NCBI GenBank assembly: GCA_030592285.1
Contig: JAUVJU010000006.1
Span: forward strand, 1-35,203
Source of the DNA: Caldifarciminota bacterium
Lineage (GTDB): Bacteria; Hydrothermota; 32-111
Length of the DNA stretch: 35,203 nt
Direction: 5' to 3'
A program made the translations under genes and the position numbers. Shown in pieces: positions 5,968 to 32,401 of this stretch. How positions within the stretch are numbered: position 1 is the first letter of the stretch; each line of letters opens with the position of its first letter. The notes under the pieces were generated by a model, which saw nothing but the letters and a program-made list of their open reading frames with translations, had not been told where the DNA came from and did not search any database.

Positions 5968-6166
5968 CGAGTTATTCTTAATAAAGGCGGACGAGGACAA
6001 CAATAAGTATAATATATTTATTGAATTACTCGGAATGTACTTACATATGGAATAACAACTTTCTGCGGAGGAAGACAAGAAAGAGGAGGAGCATCTGCAC
6101 ATTCGCCCTGTTTGCTGCATACAATGTGTAGCAGTTCCTCCGTTTACTTGTGTGACGGAGCAGAAA
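5968..6166 (+). repeat. Composite hairpin repeat, copy R1 (divergent)
   Basis: This is one of three copies of the same composite element, filling most of the gene-free gap between deoC and the transglutaminase-like gene. It has a half-site (about 5984-6007, GCGGACGAGGAC), then a palindrome-like spacer (about 6011-6040), then a hairpin. The hairpin left arm (about 6075-6098) holds ACAAG, GGAGGA and CTGC, and the right arm (about 6131-6151) holds GCAG, TCCTCC and CTTGT. Here the inner stem is extended by ACATT (left) and AATGT (right). It is followed by TGTGACGGAGCAGAA, matching the right flank of the R2 and R3 copies. This copy is the most diverged, but its pairing is kept. Function unknown. 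Confidence 0.7.
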
Positions 6167-6226
6167 AAAATAAAGATAATGCATAATATATTGGCGGACA
6201 ACTCATTTATTTGGTTGTGTGAGGTA

Positions 6227-6243
6227 ACATGCCATAGGCATGT
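6227..6243. repeat. GC-rich triloop palindrome (copy 1)
   Basis: A perfect 7-bp palindrome, ACATGCC and GGCATGT, surrounds an ATA triloop. The same structure occurs at 15096-15112, where the outermost pair is G-C instead of A-T, so the pairing is maintained while the sequence changes. Both copies follow the same GTGTGAGGTA lead-in and precede CAGGAA. It is probably a REP-like extragenic palindrome; no gene is involved. Confidence 0.7.
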
Positions 6244-6266
6244 CAGGAAAGGAATATAATTATTAA

Positions 6267-6327
6267 TGCTCAATACATTCTTCGAATTACTCCTGCTCAA
6301 TACATTCTTCGAATTACTCAGAATGTA
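6267..6327. repeat. Tandem duplication of a 26-bp repeat ending in an imperfect palindrome
   Basis: Bases 6267-6292 and 6294-6319 are identical 26-mers, a recent-looking tandem duplication with a 27-bp period. The second copy continues into a right arm, so 6301-6308 (TACATTCT) pairs with 6320-6327 (AGAATGTA). The first copy lacks that right arm. The core TCGAATTACTC between the arms is shared with similar palindromes at 7810, 14788, 14875 and 15139. Read on the minus strand it resembles the dispersed ATTCTGAG...CGAAGAAT repeats that I recall from many bacterial genomes. Confidence 0.75.
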
Positions 6328-6374
6328 CACTCCTTTCTTATGTGATGAAGCAGAAAAGAATGAATAGCCAATAA

Positions 6375-6410
6375 GGAGATTGCTTCTTCTCTTTGTTCAT
6401 CACAATGACA
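6375..6410 (-). repeat. Degenerate dispersed repeat of the TGTCATTG...GAAGCAATCTCC type
   Basis: On the minus strand this stretch begins TGTCATTGTGATGAA and ends GAAGCAATCTCC. That matches the framework of the TCATTGCGAG...GAAGCAATCT dispersed palindromes that I recall in intergenic DNA of diverse bacteria, with many substitutions in the middle. It sits just past the end of the transglutaminase-like gene. The identification is from memory of the repeat class, not from a search. Confidence 0.45.
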
Positions 6411-6424
6411 TACAAAATACATAA

Positions 6425-7717
6425 TCATTCCCTGCTTATTAATTTTATTTTCAATTTATTCTGCATCTTACCCAAAAGAATAGTTGTTGGCGGATATCCT
6501 GTTGACAATTCTATATGTGTAACATCAGCATCAAATTGATTAAGTGTAGCATCAATAGTATATATTTTCCCATTAAGAAGAACCCTGTTCCATGCATGAT
6601 AATAAAATGCTCCATTGGTATAAACAATGCCGGTAACAATATCCGCATCAAATCCGGCAGAAAGTACCATTGCTGCAAATAGTTGAGCATGCTCCGTGCA
6701 ATCACCCCTACCCATTTCCATTATTTCATCAATGCTAAGTAATGCAGATACAATGGATTTATTAAGTCGTTTAAAAACAAAATGCATTATTTCCTGTAAT
6801 AATTTTTCCTGATCATCACCTGTTTTCTTTTTCAATGTGTTAATAACAGTATTGATCTCATTATTTGATTTTACATAATGTTTACTTGTCTCACTTAATT
6901 TTTCAGGAATAAAAAATGGTGTTTTATTAACTATAAGTGTATCTCCTGAATGGCTTTGTCTATAATTTGAAATATTTTCATTACCAACGGAGTAGAGAAG
7001 AAAGGATGCTTTTTTTGCATTCTTAATATTTTTGAAATTTCCTTGTGCTTGAATAATAAAATGATCAACAATATCAACATTTTCAAAATCAATATTTTTA
7101 CTATCTGCCTTTTGCATAATAATGCCTTCTCTTGTTACACTCTTCACAACCTGTTTATCCTTAAAATATATGAATGAACCCGTTGTACTGCTTTTCACAT
7201 TAAGTACCCTGTCATAACCATCCTCATCAGTAGCACTAAAAACGGTTAATTTTTCAATAACTCTTGTTAATGGATTAAACATAAAAAGGTCTTTTTCTAA
7301 TAATTCATCACTTAATAATTCCATATTAAAAACAATTGTTTTATCACTAATATCAAAGGTATCATAAAAAGAACTATTTCCAAGAACGGTTTTTACAATC
7401 AATTGATCCTCATCTCTATACCCATTTGAATAGAATGTCATTTGTTCACTAATCACACTTGAGAAAAACTTTTCAATTTTGTAATGCTTATCATAAATTG
7501 TTAGATTTTGTCCTTTTACATTTACAGTATTATTATAAACAATAAGTTTCATTTCAGAAACTTCATTTACGGTTATATTGTTTTTTACAGTATCAACCAA
7601 TGATTGATAATATCCAATGTGATTTCCTCCCAGAATAATATCCATAAATCTTTTTTCACCCGCTACTATAAATATTGATACTAATATTATTATGATCACT
7701 ATAAGTATTTTTTTCAT
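6425..7717 (-). CDS. Exported transglutaminase-like (papain-fold) protein
   Basis: From the ATG at 7717 the product is 430 residues. An in-frame extension 19 codons upstream exists, but the chosen start immediately precedes a signal/anchor sequence (MKKILIVIIIILVSIFIVAG) and follows an AAGGGA site. The N-terminal ~290 residues are unrecognised and beta-rich. The C-terminal domain has a full transglutaminase-like triad: Cys340 in GRGDCTEHA, His374 in YYHAWNR and Asp389 in TIDATLNQ. Such exported domains act as cysteine proteases, cross-linkers or peptide hydrolases; the intact triad argues for activity, but the substrate is unknown. It lies between two repeat-bearing gaps, downstream of the C25 peptidase gene on the same strand. 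No terminator is visible after its stop. Confidence 0.82.
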   Translation of the reverse strand: MKKILIVIIIILVSIFIVAGEKRFMDIILGGNHIGYYQSLVDTVKNNITVNEVSEMKLIVYNNTVNVKGQNLTIYDKHYKIEKFFSSVISEQMTFYSNGYRDEDQLIVKTVLGNSSFYDTFDISDKTIVFNMELLSDELLEKDLFMFNPLTRVIEKLTVFSATDEDGYDRVLNVKSSTTGSFIYFKDKQVVKSVTREGIIMQKADSKNIDFENVDIVDHFIIQAQGNFKNIKNAKKASFLLYSVGNENISNYRQSHSGDTLIVNKTPFFIPEKLSETSKHYVKSNNEINTVINTLKKKTGDDQEKLLQEIMHFVFKRLNKSIVSALLSIDEIMEMGRGDCTEHAQLFAAMVLSAGFDADIVTGIVYTNGAFYYHAWNRVLLNGKIYTIDATLNQFDADVTHIELSTGYPPTTILLGKMQNKLKIKLISRE

Positions 7718-7802
7718 TTTATTTCCCTTTTTTCCATTCCTTTTGCTTGCTAAAATATAAATACAATATTGCATTTAATCCTCATACAATACTGGATTCC
7801 AA

Positions 7803-7853
7803 AGATGAACATATTCTTCAAATTATTCAGAATATGCATACGTGCGGAATGAC
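7803..7853. repeat. Imperfect palindrome repeat between C25 and transglutaminase genes
   Basis: Bases 7810-7817 (CATATTCT) pair with 7829-7836 (AGAATATG) around the TCAAATTATTC core shared with the other palindromes of this window. It is followed by a GTGCGGAATGACA tail, which on the minus strand reads TGTCATTCCGCAC, the usual lead-in of this repeat class. It lies in the 211-bp gap between two minus-strand genes and would be transcribed as a hairpin if the two are cotranscribed. Confidence 0.65.
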
Positions 7854-7928
7854 ATCTAAGAATTATTATTAACCTACTTTTTTTCATTCTTTAATATCTT
7901 CTTTCTTTATCATTGTTTATTCTTGTCT

Positions 7929-10900
7929 TCATTTTACTATCTTCACCAATTTCTTATTTTTCGTTATTACATCTTTTCTGCCAAAATAACTGAATTCTGT
8001 TTTCATTATATAGATACCTGGCGGTATTTTTCCCGTAATCCCGCTATTAATATCTAATTTAAATGAATTAAATCCATCCTTAAATGGTATGATCTGCTTT
8101 AATAGCACTCCACCATTTCTGTTTAATAATGTTAGAGTTAAATTACCACCGCCATTTGAAAGAAATGATACATACACATACTCATTTGCAGGATTAGGAT
8201 AAAGAGTAAAATCAGTAAAATATTTTACTCCATGCATATGATCAACAGTAAAATCCTTTGATGCATGTAATAATTTATTATTGTAAACAGAAACAGAAAC
8301 CGTATCGGTAAATTGTTCCGAATTTATTTCAATCCTCTTTGTATAGGTACCTGTATTATTATTATAAATAAAATCATTAACTGTTTCTGCTATACCATTT
8401 ACTGTAATTTTAGGTAAGTATCTATTTATATTACCCAAATATATACCATATCTATCATTTACTTCAATATCAAGAAAATAATCCGACGGCAATTTAATAT
8501 TATCACTAATTTCAATTCCACCACTCTTTACTGTAAGAATGGGATATTGATCATATAGCGTATCCGATTCAAGATGTAAAAGATAATTACCACTATTTAA
8601 TCCATAATGAATAATATTATTGTCTCCATATATTGCTGTTATTTCAATATTATCATAGTATGGTTTAACTATCAATGATTCGGGAAATGGCACTTCAATC
8701 ATTAATGATTCACCTTCAATATCATAATTACCCCTGAATATTAATCCATCCGTTTTATTATAATCTTGATAATGATAAGGCTCCTCATGCCAATAATCAT
8801 GAGAATCCTTATATGCAGGTTGATATACCACTATTGAAACCTGTTTATTATTTGTATTGGGGAATACAAATGAAATTGTGTCAATTGTGCCAAATGCAAA
8901 TGTATCATTTGTACTTATTTGAATATCATTTATCCTTGTTCTTACTTGCATGGCAGGATCACCAATAATATTAAATGGTGTATTTGTTAGATTATTTGTA
9001 TAGACCATTGAAAGATAATATTCCCCTATTGTATTAAAATCACCTCTAATCAAATCCCCTGTAAATATATACCTCATTAAATTCACATTGGCACCATCGA
9101 ATGTTGCTCTTATTGCAGCAAAAACAGCAGAAAAACCTGAATAGGGCAGTTTCTGAAAAGCATCTCCAATACTGCCCTCATCATAATCAAATTGTCCTGC
9201 ATTGCATGTACCAAGTAGAGCAATGGGATAATTATATAAATTATAAAATTCATCTATATCATCCGGATATAATAATATATGTTCATGTGCCAATGTATAA
9301 TGTGCCCCATGACCATAAAAATATACAAATCCTACACCCTCATTTAATTTCTTATAAATATCAAATCTAACCTGTCTCTTTTCTCCGGGATCAGTAGCCC
9401 AATGTTCATTATATGTCTGTTTATCTCCCATATAATCAACTAAATATATTTTTTCATTATGAAAATCCGAATCCAATACATTAGCCAAATACTCAGCATT
9501 TTTTGTAAATACAATTTCATGAAATTGAGATGAAGATCTACTGCTGTATTCATCATCGGCAATTAAAACAACTCTATTTTGAGAAAACATCTTCATTTTT
9601 GTTTCATAATCAATTATTTTCTTTAATACATCCCTTGCTTCCCTTTCATTTAATATAGTCATTCTGCCAGGTATCACATCAATATATTGGTCTTCACCAA
9701 TAATTGTGCAAAACCATCTATCCGTTACATTACTTGTTGATTGTGTAAGCAATGGTTCTTCCTTAATAAAATATCCCTGTTCATAAACAGGAACAATATT
9801 TCTTTTTTCATTTGGATTTAGAATATTCTTATAATCATAGGTACCCGCACCTAAAAATAATAGATATCTTGGCGTGATCTTCCAATTGTTAAATGCATAA
9901 TACATTAATGATTTTATAGAAACAGGATGCTCAATACCCAAAGAAAATGCATTATATACTTCATCCATTTCAAAAACCTTTACAGAAACACCATTTTCTT
10001 CTCTATAATATTTGTATGTATTTGCTGCATTACGCATTCCATTCCCTGTAATAATGATCATTTCAGCACCATTAAAATTATATATATTATCATTATCAAT
10101 ATATTCAATATTCTTTGGTTCATATAAATGTGTTCCAATAAAGAGTTCTTTAGGATTTCTCACCTTAATATTGTATTCACCCTGCCTTAATTGAGATAAA
10201 TGGTAATTAGTATTTTGATAATATATTAACATATCCCCATTAGAGGCAATACTAAATATATCACCATTAAATTCATTTGTAAAAATATCATCATAAATAT
10301 CTTCATTATCGGGTTTATACATTATCCGTATTTCATCAAGATACATGCGCTTATAATATGAATCAATATTTTTAAGTGTAATTTTAACAGTATTATTATT
10401 ATCAAGATTATTAACAGGAAATTCATATTCAAATGGAATTCTTGTATTATAATCCCTTATATCTATTGTTCCTGCAAGAGAATCATTTAAAAATATTTCT
10501 AATGAAAATGTATCATCTGTTTCAAAAAATATTTTTACTTTTAATGAACCGGTATCTGATTTTAATGAATGTATATCAAAATCAAATTCATATTCCATGT
10601 CCGCACTATCAGGACCCATTCTAAATGCCTTCCATACCCAGCCATATCCCGCTTTTAATGGATTTACTGAATCATAATGAAATACTATTGTATTAAACGG
10701 ACTAATCGTATCTTCATCAAATGTTAATTCTGCCGGATAATTTATTAATGATGATCCACTATAATTCACATCAAGCATATAAATATTTCTATCAGTATAT
10801 GGATTATTGTACAATTCATAATTACCATACTTATTTTTATTATCTCCATAAATTGATTGTGCAAAGAACAGAATATATTCATCCTCTTCAAATAGATTAT

Positions 10901-11612
10901 CAGTATCTCCAATAAATGAAAATGGTTTTTTTATTGGATCTCTATATACAAACATATCTGGTGTATCTACGGGGATCATTATTGTACAAGGAGTGAAAAG
11001 ACATAGTTTATTGGGATTGATCATTAATGGATTCATTCCTGCATTTTCCAAATCATTAAAGTCAATTTTATATATGCCCGTACTGTCAATCTCCATTTTA
11101 ACAAACTTCTTTACAGGAATTGTTTCCTTTGTCTGAATTTTTATTGGAGACGAGTATTCAGCATTTATTGATATTGAATTGATATCACTTGATCTCATCT
11201 TATTAATGCTATTTTCAAATTCAATATTAAATATATAATCATCATAATAATACAATTTAGCATTTTCATTCCTAAGTGGATAAAGAGTAATATGTAATAC
11301 CCTTTGTAATCCCATAAACACTATCTCTTCTTCATAAAAAGGTGATTTCACATTACTTTTTATATTATTTAAGAAATGCTTTTTTCCATTAATACTCATT
11401 AAAAGAGAGTAATCCCCTGATGAAGGCAAATTAATATAAAATTGCTTTTTAAAATCCTCTATTTCCATTTCTATTGCTGCCTTTAGTACAATATCATCTT
11501 TGGTGCTATATGTAAAAACCACAGAAGCATTGCTTGATTTTTTTTCTATTGCTGAAAATATTGATATAAAGGTACATATCAGCAATACTGTAATTACTAT
11601 TCTATTTTTCAT
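7929..11612 (-). CDS. Gingipain-like C25 cysteine peptidase with C-terminal T9SS-type sorting domain
   Basis: I place the start at ATG 11612 (1227 residues) because a clean signal peptide (MKNRIVITVLLICTFISIFS) begins there; an upstream in-frame TTG at 11633 would add seven residues. The peptidase domain spans roughly 500-880. It carries the catalytic His768 in YFYGHGAHY and Cys803 in LLGTCNAGQFD, matching the GHG and C-x-x-G patterns of gingipains and PorU. It is preceded by the MIIITGNGM and YLLFLGAGTYDY strands typical of C25. The last ~85 residues start LYPNPANEYVYVSF and end in a basic tail, the look of a type A T9SS sorting domain. It is likely a secreted or surface-bound protease or a PorU-like sortase; the N-terminal 500 residues are not assigned. 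The start lies inside the end of the Trm112-like gene (11-nt overlap). Confidence 0.88.
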   Translation of the reverse strand: MKNRIVITVLLICTFISIFSAIEKKSSNASVVFTYSTKDDIVLKAAIEMEIEDFKKQFYINLPSSGDYSLLMSINGKKHFLNNIKSNVKSPFYEEEIVFMGLQRVLHITLYPLRNENAKLYYYDDYIFNIEFENSINKMRSSDINSISINAEYSSPIKIQTKETIPVKKFVKMEIDSTGIYKIDFNDLENAGMNPLMINPNKLCLFTPCTIMIPVDTPDMFVYRDPIKKPFSFIGDTDNLFEEDEYILFFAQSIYGDNKNKYGNYELYNNPYTDRNIYMLDVNYSGSSLINYPAELTFDEDTISPFNTIVFHYDSVNPLKAGYGWVWKAFRMGPDSADMEYEFDFDIHSLKSDTGSLKVKIFFETDDTFSLEIFLNDSLAGTIDIRDYNTRIPFEYEFPVNNLDNNNTVKITLKNIDSYYKRMYLDEIRIMYKPDNEDIYDDIFTNEFNGDIFSIASNGDMLIYYQNTNYHLSQLRQGEYNIKVRNPKELFIGTHLYEPKNIEYIDNDNIYNFNGAEMIIITGNGMRNAANTYKYYREENGVSVKVFEMDEVYNAFSLGIEHPVSIKSLMYYAFNNWKITPRYLLFLGAGTYDYKNILNPNEKRNIVPVYEQGYFIKEEPLLTQSTSNVTDRWFCTIIGEDQYIDVIPGRMTILNEREARDVLKKIIDYETKMKMFSQNRVVLIADDEYSSRSSSQFHEIVFTKNAEYLANVLDSDFHNEKIYLVDYMGDKQTYNEHWATDPGEKRQVRFDIYKKLNEGVGFVYFYGHGAHYTLAHEHILLYPDDIDEFYNLYNYPIALLGTCNAGQFDYDEGSIGDAFQKLPYSGFSAVFAAIRATFDGANVNLMRYIFTGDLIRGDFNTIGEYYLSMVYTNNLTNTPFNIIGDPAMQVRTRINDIQISTNDTFAFGTIDTISFVFPNTNNKQVSIVVYQPAYKDSHDYWHEEPYHYQDYNKTDGLIFRGNYDIEGESLMIEVPFPESLIVKPYYDNIEITAIYGDNNIIHYGLNSGNYLLHLESDTLYDQYPILTVKSGGIEISDNIKLPSDYFLDIEVNDRYGIYLGNINRYLPKITVNGIAETVNDFIYNNNTGTYTKRIEINSEQFTDTVSVSVYNNKLLHASKDFTVDHMHGVKYFTDFTLYPNPANEYVYVSFLSNGGGNLTLTLLNRNGGVLLKQIIPFKDGFNSFKLDINSGITGKIPPGIYIMKTEFSYFGRKDVITKNKKLVKIVK

Positions 11613-11775
11613 CAAGCGGTTTTGCTTTATCAATTAATAGAATTGGAATATTATTCTTCACTTCATAATAAATATTGTCTTTTTTGCATATAAGAATATC
11701 CCTTTTCTCATCATATTCTAAATCACCTTTGCATTTGGGACATGCAAGAATATCAAGTAATTTTTTATCTAACAT
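11602..11775 (-). CDS. Trm112-like small zinc-binding protein (57 aa)
   Basis: A short gene between the lipoprotein and C25 genes. Translation gives 57 residues beginning MLDKKLLDILACPKCKGDLE and ending PILLIDKAKPLDEK. That is the Trm112/YcaR pattern: a CPKC knuckle at residues 12-15, a lone Cys in ILICKKDN, then the conserved IPILL near the C-terminus. In other organisms Trm112 proteins support methyltransferases; many bacterial members have no assigned role. A strong AGGAGG site sits just upstream of the ATG at 11775. It starts 14 nt after the lipoprotein stop and overlaps the C25 start by 11 nt, so it belongs to the cdd operon. The fourth metal ligand usual in the family is not obvious here. 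Confidence 0.85.
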   Translation of the reverse strand: MLDKKLLDILACPKCKGDLEYDEKRDILICKKDNIYYEVKNNIPILLIDKAKPLDEK

Positions 11776-11789
11776 AATGCCTCCTTAGA

Positions 11790-13207: not shown

Positions 13208-13215
13208 AATGTAAT

Positions 13216-13243: not shown

Positions 13244-13252
13244 GATAAAGAT

Positions 13253-13420: not shown

Positions 13421-14686
13421 TTGCGAAGTGCAATAAAAATAATGAATGAAATAAAAGGTGTTAGAATAGCAGGAACAGATGCCGAGAAAAATGCTGCTAA
13501 TAAAATAGTCCGATTCCTTGGAAAAAAGGGAGTAAAAGCAAAAAAAGAATTCTTTCCAATGCTTGTTTCAGATACAGGTGACGGTATAATAAAAGTAAAA
13601 AATGTAATAGTTAAAGGTATTCCCTATGGTTTAACTGTTCCCTATAAAATAAATGGAAAATTGATTTGCATTGACAGCATAAGTGAAGTAATGAATTTAA
13701 GCAATAAGAATAAAAATGCAATCATCCTTACAAGAGAAAGACCTAAAATGTCTCAATTCAAAAAATTAAAGAAAATTGGTATAAAAGGAATTATTACAAT
13801 TGTAAGATTTGATGGCAATATTTCTTCACAGCACTTATCTCAACATATGATAAAGGATAGATCAGTAATACCCATGATGGATATTTCATTTGATGATGCA
13901 ATTAAATTACGCTATCAAACAGGACAAAAAATTATAATGACGGGAAATGGAAAAACCTTTAAAACAAAAGCAACAAATATTATTGTTAATATGAAAGGAA
14001 AGAAAAAAACAAATGAGACCTTTATTGTTGTTGGTCATTATGATACTGTTCCTTATTCACCGGGTGCTGCAGATAATGGTGGTGGAATTGGTGTAATTAC
14101 TGAAATGATTGAATATTTCCATAAAAATCCTGTTAAACGAAATTTAATATTTATTATGTTTTCTGGAGAGGAATGGGGATTATGGGGTTCAAGACATTAT
14201 TGCAACAAACATAAAAAGGAATTAAAAAATATTATTGGCGGACTTAATGTTGATGTGGCAGGAGATGTTCTTGGAGTTAATCGCGGTATAATTACGGGTA
14301 ATAAAAGATTAATGCATACAGTAAGGGATATTGCTGACTTTAATGGTTTTCCAATAACTGTAAGTGAAGATATCTATTCATCAGACAATATGTCATTTGC
14401 ACATAACGGTATTCCGTTTCTCAATATTTGCAGAGCCGGCGGAAAACCATCAGTTTTCATTCACACAAAAAATGATAAAATGAGTTATATTGATGAAGAG
14501 TCATTTGAAGATATTGTTAATTTTGTAATAATGTTTACTGAAAAGATAGGAAATGCTGAACGAAATATTATTGAAAGGAAGATTGATGATAATATGAAAA
14601 AGAAGATTTCTGAATATTTTAAGAAAAAAGGAACAGATAGCGAACAAGTAACTAATAATTTACCATATTTAAAGAAAAATAAATAG
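13421..14686 (+). CDS. M28-family zinc aminopeptidase, cytoplasmic
   Basis: This is a 421-residue M28 metallopeptidase. The start is TTG at 13421, chosen because AGGAGG lies four bases upstream; no in-frame ATG or GTG is closer. There is no signal peptide, so it probably acts on peptides inside the cell. Zinc ligands are complete: His206 in VVGHYDTVP, Asp218 in AADNGGG, Glu250/251 in SGEEWGLWGS (catalytic base plus ligand), Asp278 in NVDVAGD and His348 in FIHTKND. Residues ~60-190 form a PA-like insertion. The last ~30 residues are charged and lysine-rich. It is transcribed alone, divergent from cdd and followed by repeat patch R2. The closest functional class is leucyl or mixed aminopeptidase; specificity is unknown. 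Confidence 0.9.
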   Translation: MRSAIKIMNEIKGVRIAGTDAEKNAANKIVRFLGKKGVKAKKEFFPMLVSDTGDGIIKVKNVIVKGIPYGLTVPYKINGKLICIDSISEVMNLSNKNKNAIILTRERPKMSQFKKLKKIGIKGIITIVRFDGNISSQHLSQHMIKDRSVIPMMDISFDDAIKLRYQTGQKIIMTGNGKTFKTKATNIIVNMKGKKKTNETFIVVGHYDTVPYSPGAADNGGGIGVITEMIEYFHKNPVKRNLIFIMFSGEEWGLWGSRHYCNKHKKELKNIIGGLNVDVAGDVLGVNRGIITGNKRLMHTVRDIADFNGFPITVSEDIYSSDNMSFAHNGIPFLNICRAGGKPSVFIHTKNDKMSYIDEESFEDIVNFVIMFTEKIGNAERNIIERKIDDNMKKKISEYFKKKGTDSEQVTNNLPYLKKNK

Positions 14687-14787
14687 TGAAATACAGAACA
14701 GTATAATCATGATGGAAAGATTCACACAATTACTCTGATATATTATATTAAAGAAATAATCAATGTTTAATATAATGCTTTGCTCAA

Positions 14788-14926
14788 CATATTCTTCGGA
14801 TTACTCAGAATATGCAACAGAGCAATTGATCTTCACCTTTCCAAAGATAAACATCAAGATTGATTCGCGTTTAACATATTTTTTGAATTACTCAAAATAT
14901 GCAATCCTCAACATTATTCGGAATGT
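14788..14926. repeat. Cluster of three imperfect palindromes in patch R2
   Basis: The first pairs CATATTCT (14788-14795) with AGAATATG (14807-14814). The second pairs CATATTTT (14875-14882) with AAAATATG (14894-14901), a compensatory change at one pair. The third, near 14910-14926, keeps only short ACATT and AATGT arms around a shortened centre. All contain a form of the GAATTACTC core. No gene is supported here; a 120-codon open frame over the area consists of repeat sequence. Confidence 0.7.
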
Positions 14927-14945: not shown

Positions 14946-15095
14946 AGAAGCGAACGAAGACAAACAATAAGGCCAATATATTCCTCAAATTATTCTTATC
15001 AGAAGCGGACGAAGACAAACAATAAGGAGAGCATCTGCGACACAGTTGGTATTTACTATACTCGCAGCAGCTCCTTTTATTGTTTGTGTGAGGTA
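14946..15095 (+). repeat. Composite hairpin repeat, copy R2 (best-preserved)
   Basis: A 27-bp half-site occurs twice, at 14946-14972 and 15001-15027, differing at one base, with a palindrome-like spacer between. The second copy runs into a two-stem hairpin. The outer stem is ACAAACAATAA (15015-15025) with TTATTGTTTGT (15077-15087), followed by GAGC (15029-15032) with GCTC (15070-15073). The inner stem is CTGCGA (15035-15040) with TCGCAG (15062-15067), closing a 21-nt loop. The right flank GTGTGAGGTAGC continues into the triloop palindrome. The R3 copy has the same stem lengths and loop length with paired base changes. Confidence 0.8.
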
Positions 15096-15112
15096 GCATG
15101 CCATAGGCATGC
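15096..15112. repeat. GC-rich triloop palindrome (copy 2)
   Basis: GCATGCC and GGCATGC form a perfect 7-bp stem around an ATA triloop, as at 6227-6243 but with a G-C outer pair in place of A-T. It directly follows the R2 hairpin right flank. Confidence 0.7.
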
Positions 15113-15233: not shown

Positions 15234-15284
15234 ACAAAAATGGGGACATTTTTTATTGATAACCACATAAATAAATGATAACTC

Positions 15285-15312
15285 TTGAATAATTACTTTT
15301 AATAAATATAAT
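15285..15312 (+). promoter_or_regulatory. Predicted sigma70 promoter for the glycosyltransferase operon
   Basis: TTGAAT (15285-15290) and a perfect TATAAT (15307-15312) are 16 bp apart. The ATG at 15321 is only 8 nt beyond the -10 box and has no Shine-Dalgarno, so a leaderless transcript is predicted. Confidence 0.6.
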
Positions 15313-15320: not shown

Positions 15321-16427
15321 ATGAAAATTGCTATTGTACATGATTATCTTAATCAATATGGAGGAGCCGAAAGGGTATTTGAAACCTTTCTTGAAATATG
15401 GCCCAAGGCAGAGGTATTCACTCTTCTTTATGATAAAAAACAATTACCAAACCGACTCAAAAAATTAAAAGTTAAAAAATCATTCTTGAATAAATTCCCA
15501 TTTAAAGGATTCTATTATGAATATCTATTACCTTTCTATCCATTAGCAGTAGAGAGCTTTGATACAAGAAAATATGATTTAGTGATTTCAAGTTCAAGTG
15601 CATGGACAAAAGGTCTTTTAACAGATATTAAAACATGCCATATTACATACTGTTATAATCCTATGCGTTTTGCATGGGATTCATTTTTTTCTATTGTAGG
15701 AACAAAAGGTTTAATTGCAAAGGGTTTAAGGTTTATAATATCAGTATTAAGAGTATGGGATTCTGTATCATCAAAGAGACCTGATAAATATTTTACAATA
15801 TCAAAATTTGTGAATAAACGAATAAAAAAATATTATGATATTGAGGCAGAAATAATTCATCCTCCGGTTAATACTGATTATTTTATACCTGATAATAATA
15901 AAAGACAGGAAGAGTTCTTCCTTCTTGTTTCAAGATTAAAACCATATAAGAAAATATGTATTGCAATTGATGCTTTTAATGAATTGGGTTTACCTCTTGT
16001 TATAATTGGAGAGGGTGTTCATAAAGGTGAATTAAAATCAAAAGCAAAGAATAATATTCAATTTTTAGATAATATTAATGATGATAAATTATTATCATAT
16101 TATCAAAGATGTCGTGCCTTTGTATTTCCTGCTGAAGAGGATTTTGGCATTGTTCCACTTGAAGCACAATCATGCGGAAAACCGGTTATTGCATTTAAAG
16201 GCGGCGGCTCTCTGGAAACAATAGAAGAAGGAGTTACAGGTAAATTCTTTTATCCTCAAACACCAGAATCACTTATAGAGGTTATTAGGGATTTTGACCA
16301 TAAACAGTATGATCCTATTATAATTAGAGAACATGCTTTAAAGTTTTCTAAGGAAATTTTTAAAAAGCAATGTAAAGAAAAATTTATTTCATTTTATAAT
16401 GAATATAAAAAACAATTGGAGGAATAA
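15321..16427 (+). CDS. Family 4 glycosyltransferase
   Basis: A 368-residue GT-B fold glycosyltransferase of the GT4 family, which transfers sugars from nucleotide donors in polysaccharide or glycolipid synthesis. The N-terminus has MKIAIVHDYLNQYGGAERVF with the acceptor-side GGAE motif. A donor-binding lysine region follows SRLKPYKKI (205-213), and the E-x7-E signature is EDFGIVPLE (Glu273 to Glu281), followed by GGGSLETI. No membrane segment is present. The ATG has no Shine-Dalgarno and sits just downstream of a strong -10 box. The stop shares one base with the next gene's ATG (TAATG), so the acyltransferase partner is coupled. Sugar and acceptor are not predictable from sequence alone. Confidence 0.9.
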   Translation: MKIAIVHDYLNQYGGAERVFETFLEIWPKAEVFTLLYDKKQLPNRLKKLKVKKSFLNKFPFKGFYYEYLLPFYPLAVESFDTRKYDLVISSSSAWTKGLLTDIKTCHITYCYNPMRFAWDSFFSIVGTKGLIAKGLRFIISVLRVWDSVSSKRPDKYFTISKFVNKRIKKYYDIEAEIIHPPVNTDYFIPDNNKRQEEFFLLVSRLKPYKKICIAIDAFNELGLPLVIIGEGVHKGELKSKAKNNIQFLDNINDDKLLSYYQRCRAFVFPAEEDFGIVPLEAQSCGKPVIAFKGGGSLETIEEGVTGKFFYPQTPESLIEVIRDFDHKQYDPIIIREHALKFSKEIFKKQCKEKFISFYNEYKKQLEE

Positions 16428-26059: not shown

Positions 26060-26085
26060 TTATCCTCCTTATTTCTTAAACACTT

Positions 26086-26113
26086 ATTATATTATATTGT
26101 TAATTAAAATCAA
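26086..26113 (-). promoter_or_regulatory. Predicted sigma70 promoter for the divIVA operon
   Basis: On the minus strand TTGATT (26113-26108) and a perfect TATAAT (26091-26086) are 16 bp apart. A second TATAAT overlaps it upstream. It faces the promoter at 26158-26188 back to back. Confidence 0.6.
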
Positions 26114-26157
26114 TAGTATTGTTCTGTTTTTTAATATTTAATTATAAAGAGCTGATA

Positions 26158-26188
26158 TTGACATTTTTTTGAATTTTATTATTATAAT
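26158..26188 (+). promoter_or_regulatory. Predicted sigma70 promoter for the small coiled-coil/HtrA/sigma operon
   Basis: TTGACA (26158-26163) is a perfect -35; TATAAT (26183-26188) is 19 bp away, slightly long, with ATTATA two bases earlier at 17 bp. The AGGAG site of the first gene follows at about 26204-26208. Confidence 0.6.
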
Positions 26189-26215
26189 AGTTAAACTAAA
26201 AAATAGGAGTTATAA

Positions 26216-26497
26216 ATGGAAACCAGTTTATGGGGTAAAGTAAAAATAAGATTATCTCAGGCACTTGAAAAATCTGAGGAAATCACGAAATTATCCAGTA
26301 AGAAAATGGAAATTGCAGGATTAGAATATAAAATTGAAAAAGCATTAACAAACTTGGGCGGACATGTTTATGAATATCTTGTTGAGAAAAACAAAAAACA
26401 GATTACCAAAAGCAAAGAATTCACAGAAAAACTCAACACAGTAAAAGAACTTCATAAACTTTTAGACAAAAAAGAAAAAGAACTCAAAAAAATCTAA
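26216..26497 (+). CDS. Small coiled-coil protein of unknown function (93 aa)
   Basis: A charged, Lys/Glu-rich protein with heptad-like spacing (KSEEITKLSSKKMEIAGLEYKI-type pattern) and no signal peptide or membrane helix. A central GGHVYEYLVEK segment resembles small conserved proteins often placed beside stress or envelope genes. I do not recognise a family. An AGGAG site lies seven bases before the ATG, and a near-consensus promoter lies upstream. It is the first gene of the HtrA/sigma/LytM operon (29 nt to the next gene), so a role linked to envelope stress is possible but unproven. Confidence 0.7.
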   Translation: METSLWGKVKIRLSQALEKSEEITKLSSKKMEIAGLEYKIEKALTNLGGHVYEYLVEKNKKQITKSKEFTEKLNTVKELHKLLDKKEKELKKI

Positions 26498-26526
26498 TCC
26501 GGTTTTTTTTGAAAGGAGGACTCCCA

Positions 26527-27987
26527 ATGAGAAGATTTGTTACTATATTTTTAATTATTGCACTTGTATTTATATTAGGTGCTATTTCATCAACTATTGT
26601 AAAAGAAGCAATGGCAAAAGATTCCGTAATAATAGAAACTATTGATAATAACAATATTCTGAATCCTAATGCTTCATTCCGTGACTTGGCATCATCAATA
26701 ACACCTGCGGTTATTCATATTAGTTCTATTTCAACAGTTAATACGCAATCATTCTCACCATTTAATGATCCCTTTTTTAAATACTTTTTTAAGGAAATGC
26801 CTGAAATGGAAAGAAAAAATACTTCAATGGGGTCAGGATTTATCTGTAATAAAGATGGATATATTGTTACCAATAATCATGTTGTAAAAAATGCAGAAAA
26901 GATAACAATAAAACTACCTGACAACAGAGAATTCTCAGGTGATGAAATAGAAGTAATAGGCACTGATAATAGAACAGATATTGCAGTATTGAAAATTAAA
27001 ACAAATAAAGACCTGCCATATATCCCCTTTGGGAACTCTGATAATATCATGGCTGGCGATTGGGTAATGGCTGTTGGGAATCCCTATGGATTTGACGGCA
27101 CTGTTACAGTTGGAGTTATTTCAGCAAAAAACAGATCTAATCTTTCAATGAGAAATGCACCTGTTTATCAGGATTTCATTCAGACAGATGCTTCCATTAA
27201 TCCTGGTAATAGCGGAGGTCCACTTGTTGACATTCATGGAAGCGTTATTGGTGTTAATGCTGCCATTGTTTCACCATCAGGCGGTAATGTGGGTATTGGA
27301 TTTGCAATACCATCAAATATGGTTTTAATGGTTGTAGAACAACTTATAGAAAAAGGAACTGTTACAAGAGGCTATTTGGGGATTTATCCTCAGGAATTAA
27401 CAAAGGAACTTAAAGAGAAATTCGGAATTAAGAAATCTGAAACAGGAGTGCTTGTAGCACAGGTAGAGAAAGATACTCCTGCAGAAAAGGCAGGGCTTGA
27501 AGAAGGAGATATTATAGTAAGTTTTGATTCTAAGACAGTAAAAAATGTGAATGATTTTAGAATTTCTGTTGCAAAAACCCCTATTGAGAAAAATATTGAA
27601 ATTATAGTGATTAGAGATAAAAAGAAAAAATCAATTATGGTAATGCTTGGCAAACTTGAAGATGAAGCAAAAATTAATAATGAAAATAATGATATTAAAT
27701 CATCTAAGTGGATGGGATTAGAAGCAGAAAACATTACATCTTCAAATAAAGAGAAATTTGGAACTATTGTGAATGATGGTGTAATCATCACCCATGTTAA
27801 TAGTAATTCACCCATTATTGAGGCGGGCTTGAGAATTGGTGATGTTATAGTTAAAATTGAGGACTTAAAGATCAGTAATATTAATGATTATAATGAAGCG
27901 GCAGATAAGTATAAAGATAGAAAAAGCCTTCTATTAACTGTAAAAAGAGGACGAATAAATATTTGGGTTGTTATCAATCTGAAATAG
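26527..27987 (+). CDS. degP: HtrA/DegP-family periplasmic serine protease with two PDZ domains
   Basis: DegP-type proteases degrade or refold damaged proteins in the periplasm. From ATG 26527 (AGGAGG eight bases upstream) the product is 486 residues. A longer in-frame TTG start 18 nt upstream would run through that ribosome site and is less likely. Residues 1-30 form a signal/anchor. The trypsin-like domain has His118 in VTNNHVV, Asp151 in DNRTDIAVL and Ser229 in NPGNSGGPL, all intact. Two PDZ domains follow, the first around GYLGIYPQEL and KAGLEEGDIIVSFD, the second around APIIEAGLRIGDVIV-like sequence. It is cotranscribed with a sigma factor and a LytM-fold protein. HtrA genes are commonly part of envelope-stress responses. 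Confidence 0.95.
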   Translation: MRRFVTIFLIIALVFILGAISSTIVKEAMAKDSVIIETIDNNNILNPNASFRDLASSITPAVIHISSISTVNTQSFSPFNDPFFKYFFKEMPEMERKNTSMGSGFICNKDGYIVTNNHVVKNAEKITIKLPDNREFSGDEIEVIGTDNRTDIAVLKIKTNKDLPYIPFGNSDNIMAGDWVMAVGNPYGFDGTVTVGVISAKNRSNLSMRNAPVYQDFIQTDASINPGNSGGPLVDIHGSVIGVNAAIVSPSGGNVGIGFAIPSNMVLMVVEQLIEKGTVTRGYLGIYPQELTKELKEKFGIKKSETGVLVAQVEKDTPAEKAGLEEGDIIVSFDSKTVKNVNDFRISVAKTPIEKNIEIIVIRDKKKKSIMVMLGKLEDEAKINNENNDIKSSKWMGLEAENITSSNKEKFGTIVNDGVIITHVNSNSPIIEAGLRIGDVIVKIEDLKISNINDYNEAADKYKDRKSLLLTVKRGRINIWVVINLK

Positions 27988-27999
27988 TGAGGCACACTT

Positions 28000-28842
28000 A
28001 TTATAATATATGATTTCAATGATAAATCACTGCAAATATACTTAAGGGATATTAAAGCTTTTCCTCTTATTAAACCCGAAGAGGAAAAGAGACTTGCACG
28101 CCTGATAAAAAATGGAGATGCATTAGCTCTTGAAAAATTAATTCAGGCAAATTTACGATTCGTTGTAAGTGTATCAAAAGAATACCAAAATAAAGGTTTA
28201 TCCCTTTCTGAAATAATAAATGAAGGAAATTATGGATTAATAATTGCTGCAAGAAAATTTGATCCTGATAAAAATGTGAAATTTATTTCCTATGCAATAT
28301 GGTGGATCAGACAATCAATTATGAAAGCAATACTTGAAAATTCAAATAATATTAGAATTCCTCTTTCCCAGATAAATAAAATCAACAGAATTAAAAGAGC
28401 AAAAAATGAAATCATTGATGAAACAGGAGATTTACCAAGTATTAAGGAATTAGCAAAAAGATTAGACCTATCTGAAAATGAAATAAATAATGCAATAAAA
28501 TTGAATAAGACCGAATTATCATTACATACTCCATTATCCGGAGACGATAATTTGTATCTTGCCAATACAATAGCACAGACAAGATTTCTCACACCTGAAG
28601 AATCATTTTTAAGGAGAAGATATAAGGAAGTGCTTAAAACACAATTAGATAAATTATCAGAAAGAGAAGCATATATATTGAGAATGTATTTTGGTCTGGA
28701 TGACAATCGCCCTCATACACTTGAAGAAATCGGAACAAAATTAAATATTTCAAGAGAACGAACCAGACAATTAAAGGAAAGAGCAATAAAAAAATTGAAG
28801 GATTTAACAAGAGGCACATTAGAGCCATATAGGAAAAAATGA
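28000..28842 (+). CDS. rpoD: Sigma-70 family (primary-type) sigma factor; no canonical start codon
   Basis: The open frame from 27991 encodes a complete region 1.2-4 sigma factor of about 280 residues: DKSLQIYLRDIKAFPLI (1.2), ANLRFVVSVSKEYQNKGLSL and EIINEGNYGLI (2.1-2.2), FISYAIWWIRQSIMKAI (2.3-2.4), ETGDLPSIKELAKRL (3.0-3.1) and TLEEIGTKLNISRERTRQL (region 4 helix-turn-helix). Region 1.1 is absent. No ATG, GTG or TTG lies in frame before GTG at 28276, which would delete regions 1.2-2.2. I place the start at ATT 28000, seven bases after a GAGG site. One missing G near 28012 in the real genome would give ATG GAT TTC and a natural N-terminus, so an assembly indel is an equal alternative. It overlaps the next gene by 4 nt. 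The symbol is tentative; this could be an RpoS-like paralogue. Confidence 0.85.
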   Translation: MIIYDFNDKSLQIYLRDIKAFPLIKPEEEKRLARLIKNGDALALEKLIQANLRFVVSVSKEYQNKGLSLSEIINEGNYGLIIAARKFDPDKNVKFISYAIWWIRQSIMKAILENSNNIRIPLSQINKINRIKRAKNEIIDETGDLPSIKELAKRLDLSENEINNAIKLNKTELSLHTPLSGDDNLYLANTIAQTRFLTPEESFLRRRYKEVLKTQLDKLSEREAYILRMYFGLDDNRPHTLEEIGTKLNISRERTRQLKERAIKKLKDLTRGTLEPYRKK

Positions 28843-29714
28843 AAAGAAGAAAATTAAAGATATCTATTATACCTCATGGTACAGAAAAAATTAGGGCAAC
28901 ACGATTTTTTATAATTATTTTGCCTGTCATTGCGATAATTATTTTGTGTATTTCAATATTTATTACAACTATGACAATTATAAATATTGGAAATATTAAG
29001 GATTACAGATCTATAAAGAAAATGCGTGAGAATATTGCAATACTTACAATTAAGAATAGAGAATCCAAAAAAGCAATTGATGAGATTGAAAAGGGCATTG
29101 GGGAACTTCAAAAAAAAACATCTGATATACTTCCCTATTATAATTATATGTCAGGAATTGCTCGTTCAGATACATTCAATCTAAAACTTCCGACAAATAC
29201 AGATTCTTTACTCACATTTTCCGATTATATTATACTTACCTATAATAGTATTTTTGAGGCAGTAAAAAATCCATCTTATGCCAATAAGATTCCCACAATT
29301 ATTCCTGTTAGCGGTTGGGTTTTTAGGGACTTTGGAAATATAATAGATCCTTATACTGAAACAGAAAGATTTAATCCGGGAATAATAATTGTTGCTAATG
29401 AGGGAGAAAATGTATATGCAGCAGGAGATGGTTATATTTTATTTGCCGGAGATAAACCTAAATTAGGTCAAACTATAATTATTAAACATACAAAGGACAT
29501 TACAACTACATATGCTCATTTATCAAGCATAAAGATTGATGCTGGAAAAACAGTGAAAAAGGGTGAGATTATTGGATACATTGGAAAATCAGGGAAAGTG
29601 CTTGCACCATCATTATTTTTTGAAATAACAAGAAATGATAAACCAATAAATCCAAGAAATGCTTTTCTTGTTCCCCTTTATGATCTTTATGATTCATTAA
29701 GTATAAACTTATAA
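28839..29714 (+). CDS. LytM/M23-fold protein with degenerate metal site
   Basis: This 291-residue protein has one N-terminal membrane helix (about 22-50), a short coiled coil (60-95) and a C-terminal M23 domain (155-275). The fold is clear from AAGDGYILFAG, GQTIIIKHTKDITTTYAHLSS and GEIIGYIGKSGK. However the zinc ligands are lost. The first His and the Asp of the HxxxD motif are Asn179 and Ile183, and both histidines of the HxH motif are Ser258 and Phe260. Only the YAHL His227 remains. It therefore should not be an active endopeptidase and may act, like EnvC or NlpD, as a regulator of a cell wall amidase. It overlaps the sigma gene by 4 nt. Its last 28 bases overlap the convergent lytic transglycosylase gene. 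Confidence 0.85.
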   Translation: MKRRKLKISIIPHGTEKIRATRFFIIILPVIAIIILCISIFITTMTIINIGNIKDYRSIKKMRENIAILTIKNRESKKAIDEIEKGIGELQKKTSDILPYYNYMSGIARSDTFNLKLPTNTDSLLTFSDYIILTYNSIFEAVKNPSYANKIPTIIPVSGWVFRDFGNIIDPYTETERFNPGIIIVANEGENVYAAGDGYILFAGDKPKLGQTIIIKHTKDITTTYAHLSSIKIDAGKTVKKGEIIGYIGKSGKVLAPSLFFEITRNDKPINPRNAFLVPLYDLYDSLSINL

Positions 29715-31348
29715 ATGTAATAATCTCTTAAAACATTCTTTATGAATATTCTTGTTTCCCTAAATGGGATCATTTCAATATAAAGTTCCCAATCAATTTT
29801 TTTCCTATTCCATTTCATCACATTTCCAGGACCAGCATTATAGGACATAATGCCATAGGCAAGATTTACTTCAAACATACTTAAATATGTACTGATATGC
29901 CTTGAACCAACTGTAATGTTTTTTTCAATATTGAAATTATCATTGTCATCAAAATGTTCTTCATACACAAAATCCATTAATTGCATTATTCCCTTTGCTC
30001 CTGCTGGCGACACTGCATTAGGATTAAACCAGCTCTCCTGTCTTGCAATTGCATATAGTAAAGCAATATCAACATTTGTCTTTTCTGCTGCTTCTTCAAA
30101 TATTTTTCTATGAGGAAGTGGAAACAGGTATTTACTGCATTCATTAACAGGAATACCAATATGCAGCATTCTATAACCAAAGGTCATTGTTCTATTATAT
30201 ATTTCCATTCTGTAATAAAACTCTGCAAAATATTTTGCAGTATTTTTATTTGCTCTATATGTTTTATCGGCAAAACTATTAAATATGCTTTCTTTATCAT
30301 ATTCCTGCAATTTCAGGAATATTTCCTTATATTTATCAAATCCTTTTAATGTATATTTTTTATTGTTCGTACTAATTTTATTTATAATTTGTCTTGCTCT
30401 AACACAATAAAAACTAACACTGTTAAGGTTTGATAAATAGAGAAATAATGAATCGGCAATGCCTCGCTTTCCATCAAAGTACAATGCTTTTGCTTTATGA
30501 TAAAGAACCGATTCAAAATCAGATTCATCCTTTAATAAAATAGAATCACTTTTACTGCGGAAAGAATGTTCTCCTATTTTAGCAATTATTCTTATATATG
30601 CTTCCGGATCATTTGCCTTTAAATACATTTTAAGTGCTTTTTCAAATTCTTCTTCCTTTTCATAGTATCTTCCTCTATAATATGCCGGTTTTGTAAATTC
30701 AATATTATCATCAATATATGCACCCGCAAAAAGCATTTTATTTCTATCCTTAATATATTGAAGCAGATACTCATATTTCTTCATTAATTTACTGATAATA
30801 AATTCATTCTCTTTAATTATACCATTAAGGAAGATATATAAACTGTCATTTGTTAAAGAATACATTGAATCATTAAAATTGGTGCTCAATATTCCGCAGG
30901 CAAAAATCTCTATTTTATCTTTATCTATTATTTCCGAATTTTTTAATATACATTCCCTTGTCTTCATAGCATTGGGAAAATGTATAATCATTTTTTTCCA
31001 ATCATTTTTCTTAAATAATTCATCAATGAAGAATATTTTATAACCAGTATTTTTTAATATATAAACAAAATTTTCATACTGCGGGTTTTTAGCAATTTTT
31101 AATGCATTCCTTTCAAGCAATGAATCATAGGGAATAAAGATTGATTTCAGGATTTTCTTATTTCCCTTTTCATAAAAGTAATCAGCATAGTATGATTTAA
31201 TTGATGCCCTTAGAAATATATTATCAATATTATTAATAAGGTGAATATTCTTTTCGGGTTCCTTTAGTATTTTTTCAATAATAGATATATTGCTGTAAAG
31301 AATAATAAATATAAAAAATATGGGGAAAAATAATGCTTTCTTATACAT
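29687..31348 (-). CDS. slt: Soluble lytic transglycosylase, Slt70-like
   Basis: This enzyme cleaves the glycan strand of peptidoglycan, forming anhydro-muropeptides. The 553-residue protein has an N-terminal signal (about 1-22), a long alpha-superhelical middle (for example KEEEFEKALKMYLKANDPEA) and a C-terminal SLT domain. The catalytic Glu438 is in ARQESWFNPNA, followed by SPAGAKGIMQLM and the SYNAGPGNV segment; all three family motifs are intact. It starts 8 nt inside dapF, so the two are coupled. Its 3' end overlaps the LytM-fold gene tail to tail by 28 nt, and no terminator is visible between them. Confidence 0.93.
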   Translation of the reverse strand: MYKKALFFPIFFIFIILYSNISIIEKILKEPEKNIHLINNIDNIFLRASIKSYYADYFYEKGNKKILKSIFIPYDSLLERNALKIAKNPQYENFVYILKNTGYKIFFIDELFKKNDWKKMIIHFPNAMKTRECILKNSEIIDKDKIEIFACGILSTNFNDSMYSLTNDSLYIFLNGIIKENEFIISKLMKKYEYLLQYIKDRNKMLFAGAYIDDNIEFTKPAYYRGRYYEKEEEFEKALKMYLKANDPEAYIRIIAKIGEHSFRSKSDSILLKDESDFESVLYHKAKALYFDGKRGIADSLFLYLSNLNSVSFYCVRARQIINKISTNNKKYTLKGFDKYKEIFLKLQEYDKESIFNSFADKTYRANKNTAKYFAEFYYRMEIYNRTMTFGYRMLHIGIPVNECSKYLFPLPHRKIFEEAAEKTNVDIALLYAIARQESWFNPNAVSPAGAKGIMQLMDFVYEEHFDDNDNFNIEKNITVGSRHISTYLSMFEVNLAYGIMSYNAGPGNVMKWNRKKIDWELYIEMIPFRETRIFIKNVLRDYYIYKFILNES

Positions 31349-32147
31349 TTAAAAGTAATTGTCCTTTATAAATGGGACTAACTTTGCCTTCCAAATAAAC
31401 CTTATCAAAATTCTTATCAAATTCAATATTTAGTATTTCTCCTGAAACTGTTTTAATTTTAATTGGACTTGTGATATTCATATTTAGCGAAGCAGAGATT
31501 GCAGCTGCAACAGAGCCAGTACCGCATGCAAGGGTTTCATCTTCTATTCCCCTTTCATATGTTCTTATTAAAATCAAGTCCCCCTGTTTACTGATAAAAT
31601 TTACATTTGTTCCCTGTTCTCCAAATACTGGATTATTGCGAATCTCTCTTCCAATATTTATTACATCAATATTTTCAATATCACTTAATATTGTTACAAA
31701 GTGTGGAACACCTGTATTTAGAAAATCTCCGGTAAACTTCTGCTCTGATATCTTAATAGTCATATTCCGTTTAAAGAATTGTGGTCTTTCAATCTGTAAT
31801 TTTATAGTATTATTGTTTTTTATATATGCCTTATGAAGTCCATTTCTTGAACTGAATATAGTTTCATTCCCATTAACTATTCCATTCATCTTAGCAAAAA
31901 GAACAATACATCTACCCCCATTACCGCACATATCCGCTCCAAATCCATCATTATTAAAGTATTGCATTTCAAAATCATACTTTAATGATTTATTTAAAAG
32001 GATCAACCCATCTGCCCCAACACCCGTTTTCCGTTCACATATTTTCTGAATTTTAGCAGGAGACAGTTCAATAGAGCTGTCTCTATTATCCATTATAATA
32101 AAATCATTACCGCTGCCGGAAATCTTGTAAAATTCAATTGCTTTCAA
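31341..32147 (-). CDS. dapF: Diaminopimelate epimerase
   Basis: DapF converts LL- to meso-diaminopimelate for lysine and peptidoglycan. The 268-residue protein has the two catalytic cysteines: Cys74 in ADMCGNGGRC and Cys208 in LACGTGSVAAA, with the usual GSGNDF (11-16) and GADGLI motifs. Length and motif order are normal. It is followed by the lytic transglycosylase (8-nt overlap), giving a small cell wall unit. A 357-bp repeat-filled gap (R3) separates it from argF upstream, and I see no clear promoter in that gap. Confidence 0.96.
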   Translation of the reverse strand: MKAIEFYKISGSGNDFIIMDNRDSSIELSPAKIQKICERKTGVGADGLILLNKSLKYDFEMQYFNNDGFGADMCGNGGRCIVLFAKMNGIVNGNETIFSSRNGLHKAYIKNNNTIKLQIERPQFFKRNMTIKISEQKFTGDFLNTGVPHFVTILSDIENIDVINIGREIRNNPVFGEQGTNVNFISKQGDLILIRTYERGIEDETLACGTGSVAAAISASLNMNITSPIKIKTVSGEILNIEFDKNFDKVYLEGKVSPIYKGQLLLNV

Positions 32148-32204
32148 AAGTTATTACCCCTGTTTGATTGTGTGATGGAGATGAAGAGATAAAGATAATG
32201 CGAA

Positions 32205-32401
32205 ACATATTCTTCAAATTATTCGGAATGTATCTTTTCTGCGGAGAAATATCATTCAACAACCTCATGACAAACAAGAAAGATAAGAAACATATTTTTT
32301 GAATTAATCTTAACAGAAGCGGAAAAGGACAATCAATAAAGTGAGCATCTGCAACACGATTAATAATTACTATACTTGCAGCAGCTCTTCTTATTGATTG
32401 T
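32205..32401 (+). repeat. Composite hairpin repeat, copy R3
   Basis: The same order as R2 is seen: a half-site-like stretch (about 32268-32287, ACAAACAAGAAAG), a palindrome-like spacer with ACATATTTTTTGAATTAATC, then AGAAGCGG and the hairpin. The outer stem is ACAATCAATAA (32329-32339) with TTATTGATTGT (32391-32401), then GAGC (32343-32346) with GCTC (32384-32387). The inner stem is CTGCAA (32349-32354) with TTGCAG (32376-32381) around a 21-nt loop. Against R2, one A-T pair becomes T-A and one G-C pair becomes A-T, each on both sides. A separate degenerate palindrome starts at 32205. It fills the gap between argF and dapF. Confidence 0.8.

Follow-up and report, generated by a model that had tools for sequence, protein, structure and literature searches.

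The IS1202 family of insertion sequences (ISs) was recently described by Harmer, Pong and Hall (2023; PMC10132070). Its members are 1.3-1.75 kb long, have TGT/ACA ends with imperfect 24-26-bp repeats and an extra internal site near each end, and encode a DDE transposase of 394-507 amino acids with a glutamine seven residues past the catalytic glutamate (PMC10132070). In one group of the family the target duplications are long, mostly 16-17 bp (27-28 bp also), and no target was found, whereas members of the ISAjo2 group are separated by a 5-bp duplication from the XerC site of dif/pdif (PMC10132070). Here, we describe a 35,203-nucleotide stretch of DNA (the window) from a Caldifarciminota bacterium (GenBank assembly GCA_030592285.1, contig JAUVJU010000006.1, positions 1 to 35,203), in which an imperfect hairpin of about 105 nucleotides, termed H, occurs at three places, R1, R2 and R3. 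We consider it likely that miniature inverted-repeat transposable elements (MITEs) of one family contain H as their conserved inner hairpin and are moved in trans by an IS1202-family transposase that inserts directly upstream of the promoter -35 box.

The window's genome is represented by one draft assembly (2.14 Mb, 205 contigs, 96.7% complete), in which R1-R3 are three of at least 55 H loci. With R2 as a blastn query, 49 matches were obtained. An earlier reading of the window from its letters alone (the sequence-only reading) had proposed a covariance-model search for further copies; a model built from 22 copies returned 65 matches genome-wide (best E value 6e-34), a few of which were the opposite strand of the same palindromic sites. 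None of 79 relatives, four members of the same family among them, yielded H, and exact-pattern scans gave no match in GTDB r220 species genomes or IMG/VR viral contigs. As far as can be seen, H is thus confined to the window's genome. The sequence-only reading knew of no named family for it, and no Rfam family matches H, the weak matches falling far below gathering scores.

From the outside inward, H begins with a short stem (AGC/GCT, TGC/GCA or TAC/GTA), followed by a symmetric purine-rich internal loop, GGA(C/G)GAAG / GTGA(G/C)GGA, whose central pair is intact in all 22 copies (CG in 11, GC in 10, AU in 1). Further inward lies a 14-pair stem that starts with ACAA/TTGT and has two common designs, and the inner part consists of GAGC/GCTC, a small loop, CTGCGA/TCGCAG and a variable tip. 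The three hairpins fold much better than dinucleotide shuffles of them, with z values of -5.7 (R1), -4.6 (R2) and -3.3 (R3), and the value for another H copy is -6.8. Two other identities were considered. A reverse-transcribed element (group II intron or retron) was rejected on finding no RVT_1 match in the genome, given its 96.7% completeness; an integron attC site was considered from the fold alone, and nothing was seen in its favour.

Reading outward from the simplest H copies, we found terminal inverted repeats, TGTTATTACCATAAAAAAATGTCCC...GGGGACATTTTTTATTGGTAACAACA, which occur at 37 sites in the window's genome (up to two mismatches; none for a reversed-pattern control). About a dozen H clusters sit inside elements with such repeats. 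Both ends are present in ten elements, which are non-coding, 202-488 bp long and flanked by target duplications of 15-18 bp, three of them perfect (TCAATGAAATAAACCC, TACAATAGATTCTTTGAC and ACATTTTGTCCACAAAT) and most others near-perfect; no flanking duplication was seen for the element L119. Several elements also contain a second, internal copy of the repeat before the right end (e.g., GGGGACATTTATTAATAGTAATTTAAGGGGACATTTTTTATTGGTAACAACA at locus L006/L013). Terminal repeats, an internal repeat and 15-18-bp duplications are hallmarks of the IS1202 family, and from these features the H elements with terminal repeats are best read as MITEs of IS1202-family type. The sequence-only reading had listed a match to a known IS or MITE end among the outcomes that would speak against it; such a match, to IS1202-type ends, was found.

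ISs of this type are present in the same genome. IS-A, on contig C179, is 1441 bp long with a 453-amino-acid open reading frame (ORF) that scores 141 bits with the NCBIfam ISNCY model (below the cut-off of 250), and a second copy, at the 88% level of identity and with stops in its ORF, lies on C127. IS-B, also on C127, measures 1388 bp and encodes 407 amino acids, scoring 332 bits with the same model. The stop-bearing IS-A and IS-B adjoin (L136:636-3477), the IS-A duplication beginning right at the end of IS-B. End positions matched at 27/28 in IS-A and 21/28 in IS-B, and an additional internal repeat copy near the ends was read directly in both. Across the tested IS1202-type elements the transposase ORFs encode 401-453 amino acids, and a glutamine occupies the seventh residue after the catalytic glutamate (E256/Q263 invariant in group A2, E303/Q310 invariant in group A3). 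The transposase had no PDB match at E 0.01. Of 26 positions, the end of IS-B (TGTGATTACTATATGAAAATGTTAAC) shares 18 with the MITE end (TGTGATTACCAATAAAAAATGTCCCC), and that of IS-A shares 13. IS-B as the sole partner of the MITE was rejected, the ends being similar and not equal.

The position of these insertions is fixed with respect to promoters. An exact TTGACA occurs 15-18 bp outside 13 of the 37 MITE ends (shuffle mean 0.05, maximum 2 in 5000); of the 14 exact hexamers near MITE ends, the remaining one lies at 12 bp, and none was found elsewhere in the scanned flanks. TATAAT peaks 37-40 bp from the MITE ends, and -10 boxes (at least a 5/6 match) accompany 77% of the TTGACA motifs at MITE ends versus 41% of those at other intergenic places. 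These statistics count the two ends of one element separately, a problem from which the 32-element test described below is free. The promoter-proximal end is the right one more often than the left, and the element L067 sits between two divergent promoters with both -35 boxes adjoining its 18-bp duplication. ISs show the same arrangement: for example, the duplication of the C127 copy of IS-A (TGACATTAATAATTG) is directly followed by TTGACA, and nine further elements with perfect duplications from the same phylum (NF033594 matches) all abut TTGAC[ACT] beside one duplication copy.

For a wider sample, GTDB was scanned with a seven-transposase alignment, giving 80 loci from many phyla. Complete elements were then accepted by a promoter-blind rule that asked for a terminal-repeat match of at least 15/28, a perfect duplication of 8-30 bp and a length of 1.2-2.0 kb. 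TGT/ACA or TGY/RCA ends were part of the search rule, so that the independent support comes from the perfect duplications. Applied to the in-phylum and GTDB-wide sets, the rule yielded 32 independent complete IS1202-type elements from many phyla. In all 32, the duplication is 15-18 bp long. A TTGACA match of at least 5/6 starts at the first base past the duplication in 26 of them, while every other offset from -12 to +40 has 0-2. The TATAAT match forms a single peak at a 17-bp spacer (3.92 versus about 1.7), and the promoter lies on the transposase-downstream side in 14 cases and on the opposite side in 12. At the sequence level, a targeting rule for IS1202-type elements, by which the duplication abuts the promoter -35 box, can be regarded as established.

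In the mechanism that we propose, an IS1202-family (ISNCY, TnsB-like) transposase would move the H-bearing MITEs in trans, using their TGT...ACA ends and joining them at two points 15-18 bp apart, right in front of a sigma70-type promoter's -35 hexamer. Between the element and the intact promoter there would then be a single copy of the duplicated 15-18 bp, so that the gene would be spared. We infer that the transposase may locate the -35 box either by way of RNA polymerase or sigma bound at the promoter or by direct recognition of the -35 DNA; folding of one strand would serve the element. A broader proposition, which we hold with modest confidence, is that transposases of the long-duplication IS1202 group recognise sigma70 promoters, probably via promoter-bound RNA polymerase or sigma region 4 at -35, and cut in such a way that the upstream promoter region stays whole thanks to the 15-18-bp duplication. 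This would constitute a bacterial counterpart of polymerase-guided integration, spread over many phyla and exploited by hairpin MITEs.

Several observations weigh against the transposition of H by an IS1202-type enzyme. The exact autonomous partner of the MITE was not found in the genome, the ends of IS-B being similar and not identical, and IS-B is present as one copy only. At some MITE ends, a -35 box cannot be recognised on either side. Terminal repeats are missing from the majority of H copies, R1 and R3 among them, so that the evidence for this route of mobility covers a minority. No empty-site comparison was possible, as no close relative carries or lacks the locus. Furthermore, R2 shows one end only, and the left copy of its duplication was not found in the window sequence.

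The features of the window that bear on H are as follows.

6058-6167, + strand: R1, H hairpin lacking terminal repeats, right side toward the 3' end of the gene at 6425-7774 (-)
14705-14842, - strand: H2, a second hairpin type with the GARGACAA/TTGTGTGA motif; a P palindrome breaks up its tip (arms read from the sequence)
14788-14816, + strand: P palindrome, stem CATATTCT/AGAATATG, loop TCGGATTACTC, one of several in the window
14998-15103, + strand: R2, H hairpin of an element with a right terminal repeat
15242-15267, + strand: right terminal inverted repeat of the R2 element, GGGGACATTTTTTATTGATAACCACA
15268-15284, + strand: the 17 bp from the R2 element end to the -35 box, the expected place of the target duplication
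15285-15312, + strand: promoter of the gene at 15321-16427, -35 TTGAAT, 16-bp spacer, -10 TATAAT
15321-16427, + strand: glycosyltransferase group 1 gene downstream of the promoter on the R2 side
32312-32417, + strand: R3, H hairpin lacking terminal repeats, right side toward the 3' end of the gene at 32505-33431 (-)

By its position, R2 fits the insertion rule, its right end lying 17 bp ahead of the promoter of gene 15321; the left end has disappeared among nested repeats. R1 and R3 have no terminal repeats within 450 bp at three mismatches. A degenerate left terminal repeat near 5951, beside R1 (four mismatches), is probably due to chance, as it lies about 20 bp from a gene start and has no promoter. 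Among the neighbouring genes, 7929-11633 (-) encodes a 1234-amino-acid protein with a peptidase C25 (gingipain-type) domain, in the neighbourhood of a transglutaminase-core protein (6425-7774) and an M28 peptidase gene (13421-14686).

The sequence-only reading placed the three hairpins correctly, and both of the paired changes that it noted between R2 and R3 are present: A-T to T-A in the outer stem (ACAAAC/GTTTGT versus ACAATC/GATTGT) and G-C to A-T in the inner one (CTGCGA/TCGCAG versus CTGCAA/TTGCAG). Several of its details did not hold. The 21-nucleotide loops were said to share an ending, yet R3's alone ends in ATTACTATAC and R2's ends in TTTACTATAC; the supposedly kept 3 by 3 internal loop consists in R2 of two G.U pairs and one A.C; and what was taken for a flank beyond a two-stem hairpin is a further stem, reached through the purine-rich loop. 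The real element ends, which it missed, lie outside that stem. Its suggestion of a non-autonomous mobile element is borne out for the subset with inverted-repeat ends, 15-18-bp duplications and related ISs; R1 and R3, which have no convincing terminal repeats, lie outside this subset. All three copies do share one direction on the + strand, but for different causes: R1 and R3 face gene 3' ends, and R2 faces a promoter.

This difference recurs across the genome when H clusters on mapped contigs are compared with genes called as simple ORFs. In 11 of 12 clusters with terminal repeats, the right-side gene starts there, whereas in 26 of 28 clusters lacking them the right-side gene ends there, its 3' end toward H and sometimes with the stop codon only about 30 nucleotides away. 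Because they face gene 3' ends, clusters without terminal repeats oppose the coding/GC-skew strand (29 of 34), and R1 and R3 accordingly run against their neighbouring genes. Gene direction and GC skew correlate at 0.94. The orientation of these clusters is predicted by the gene on the H3 side in 26/28 cases versus 17/29 for the other neighbour; a replication-strand lock as the cause of H orientation was set aside, since the H3-side gene predicts better and adjacency to gene ends is the simpler reading. R1, R3 and most other copies have no terminal repeats; they would be decayed relatives, or else another route spread them. Transfer by a different enzyme or retention as gene-end structures may account for this second class behind genes.

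Other palindromes are found again and again within the tips and loops of H, H2 and P, and this nesting accounts for the composite appearance given in the sequence-only description; hairpins seem to collect in hairpin tips. H2, which has the GARGACAA/TTGTGTGA internal-loop motif in common with H, lies near H in the opposite orientation (in the window, and at L009:7718-7813 (-), L009:1373-1468 (-), L015:1766-1861 (+), L070:1249-1344 (+) and L082:1088-1177 (-)). P forms 27-bp tandem arrays (ATTCC-TCAAATTACTC-GGAAT; the stem covaries and the loop is conserved) within and between H copies, always in H's orientation (L060:200-900, L077:1440-1600, L026:36-145 and many others). A palindrome with a TTCGACAAGCTC loop (CCCTTCGATTAACTCAGGG and variants), which resembles that of P, entered the 5' arm of H at one insertion point, GGAC|AAG, in several copies (L018:351-482, L024, L085, L028, L032). 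GTAG-type REP/REPIN palindromes lie in or beside H (L024:1620-1740, L031:1560-1640, L023:1569-1695 and window 32459-32480), and some of the H copies have a small palindrome, GCATGCCATAGGCATGC, after their GTGTGAGGTAGC tail (at window 15098-15112 and 6229-6245, among other places). For the CCTTCGACAAGCTCAGG palindrome, no paper was found within the open-licence PMC literature. The 2.1-Mb genome has eleven Y1_Tnp (RAYT-like) genes (L089-L096), and the ones that were read are bounded by inverted terminal palindromes of their own (e.g., GGGGACGGAGGATGCAAATATGCA).

The pairing evidence raises the question of what the fold is for. Paired changes were counted among related H copies, in which cells are not independent events, so that the following numbers are indicative and do not amount to a formal test: in 22 copies, two-sided changes occupy 77 cells versus 33 expected from shuffling; the covariation score is 0.283 versus 0.151 and is reached by none of 500 shuffles; and mismatches at well-paired positions, on the strand as written, comprise 29 G.U versus 4 A.C (11 versus 3 pair columns). 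One stem pair is seen as CG, GC, AU, UA and UG and is broken in no copy. The covariation claimed in the sequence-only reading is thereby upheld. Since G.U greatly exceeds A.C on one strand, one strand of H probably folds, and the asymmetry speaks against a double-stranded-DNA cruciform, which would lack it. The further claim of selection on a folded single strand gains support from this excess and is not proved by it; RNA and single-stranded DNA are indistinguishable as the folded form on these data.

One could take these signals to mean that H is a functional RNA, a structure with a 3'-end or regulatory role that is maintained and copied for the host's benefit, with the mobile ends incidental. 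The covariation and the strand asymmetry would suit such a role, as would the location of copies without terminal repeats directly behind gene 3' ends. However, an mRNA at those ends would carry the complementary strand, turning G.U into A.C; the H copies are heavily broken by nested palindromes; and no counterpart was found in the 79 relatives, those of the same family included, or in Rfam. We regard this explanation as unlikely.

Just as doubtful, in our judgement, is that the copies without terminal repeats are palindromes like the repetitive extragenic palindromes (REPs), moved through single-stranded DNA by Y1 (RAYT-type) transposases. The eleven Y1_Tnp genes and the nesting of REP-like GTAG palindromes with H are what such a process might leave, and it could also account for the strand bias against GC skew and for the lack of mixed-orientation clusters (0/21). 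Yet no H was found at the eight Y1 loci examined, which have their own terminal palindromes, H is much longer than REPs, and adjacency to gene ends is a better predictor of orientation than replication.

Template switching or gene conversion in palindromes yields matched changes, and such events between the arms of a quasi-palindrome could in principle produce the paired changes of H with no selection on folding, the more so as many copies are related by descent. Conversion of arms would nevertheless erase internal loops, and GGASGAAG/GTGASGGA stays unpaired save at its centre; nor does it predict the 29:4 excess of G.U over A.C. Its probability appears a little lower still. Finally, insertion anywhere between genes with survival of the promoter-sparing events alone is very improbable as a substitute for targeting: all examined elements are intergenic with the promoter intact, as it expects, but it predicts a spread of distances in place of the single offset in 26/32 elements and the 15-18-bp spacing of 13/14 exact hexamers.

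The preferred reading, promoter-directed insertion by IS1202-type transposases, addresses a point that the 2023 family paper left open, namely the target of the long-duplication group, which here is identified as the promoter with base-pair precision and from sequence alone. No paper reporting promoter targeting by the IS1202 family was found within the open-licence PMC literature and, as far as could be found, this target has not been reported before. The geometry is testable, the first T of TTGACA being the first base past the duplication. If experiments agree, these elements would form a class of bacterial transposons that find promoters, with a bearing on how ISs avoid harm to the host and rewire genes. 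The rule explains the promoter-side H copies, and the puzzle that is left concerns the copies without terminal repeats that face gene 3' ends.

The elements studied here have in common with the published long-duplication IS1202 group (PMC10132070) the TGT/ACA ends, imperfect repeats of about 26 bp, an internal repeat near the end, long duplications, the transposase size and the glutamine seven residues past the catalytic glutamate; they differ in that the target here is the edge of the promoter -35 box and that the H elements are non-coding and contain a conserved hairpin. The ISAjo2 group displays the same geometry, with a duplication separating the element from the site of a host protein, but with 5 bp and XerC/dif in place of 15-18 bp and a promoter. 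This parallel suggests one family theme, that of joining next to the binding site of a host protein. A more distant likeness is offered by the yeast elements Ty1 and Ty3, whose integration upstream of RNA polymerase III genes takes place at a set position by the transcription starts and spares the genes, and for which protein tethering has been shown. As with those elements, insertion here occurs at a fixed spot by a transcription start and genes are spared; unlike the IS1202-type elements, for which we only infer tethering, Ty1 and Ty3 are retrotransposons with another integrase, and no relationship is implied. MITEAba12 is a bacterial MITE like the H elements, from another organism. Imperfect palindromes of the ERIC/NEMIS type and REP/BIME clusters are likewise intergenic, occur in dozens of copies and lie nested behind genes. 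H resembles them as an intergenic imperfect palindrome in dozens of copies, and differs in that a subset of its copies has defined transposon ends and long target duplications.

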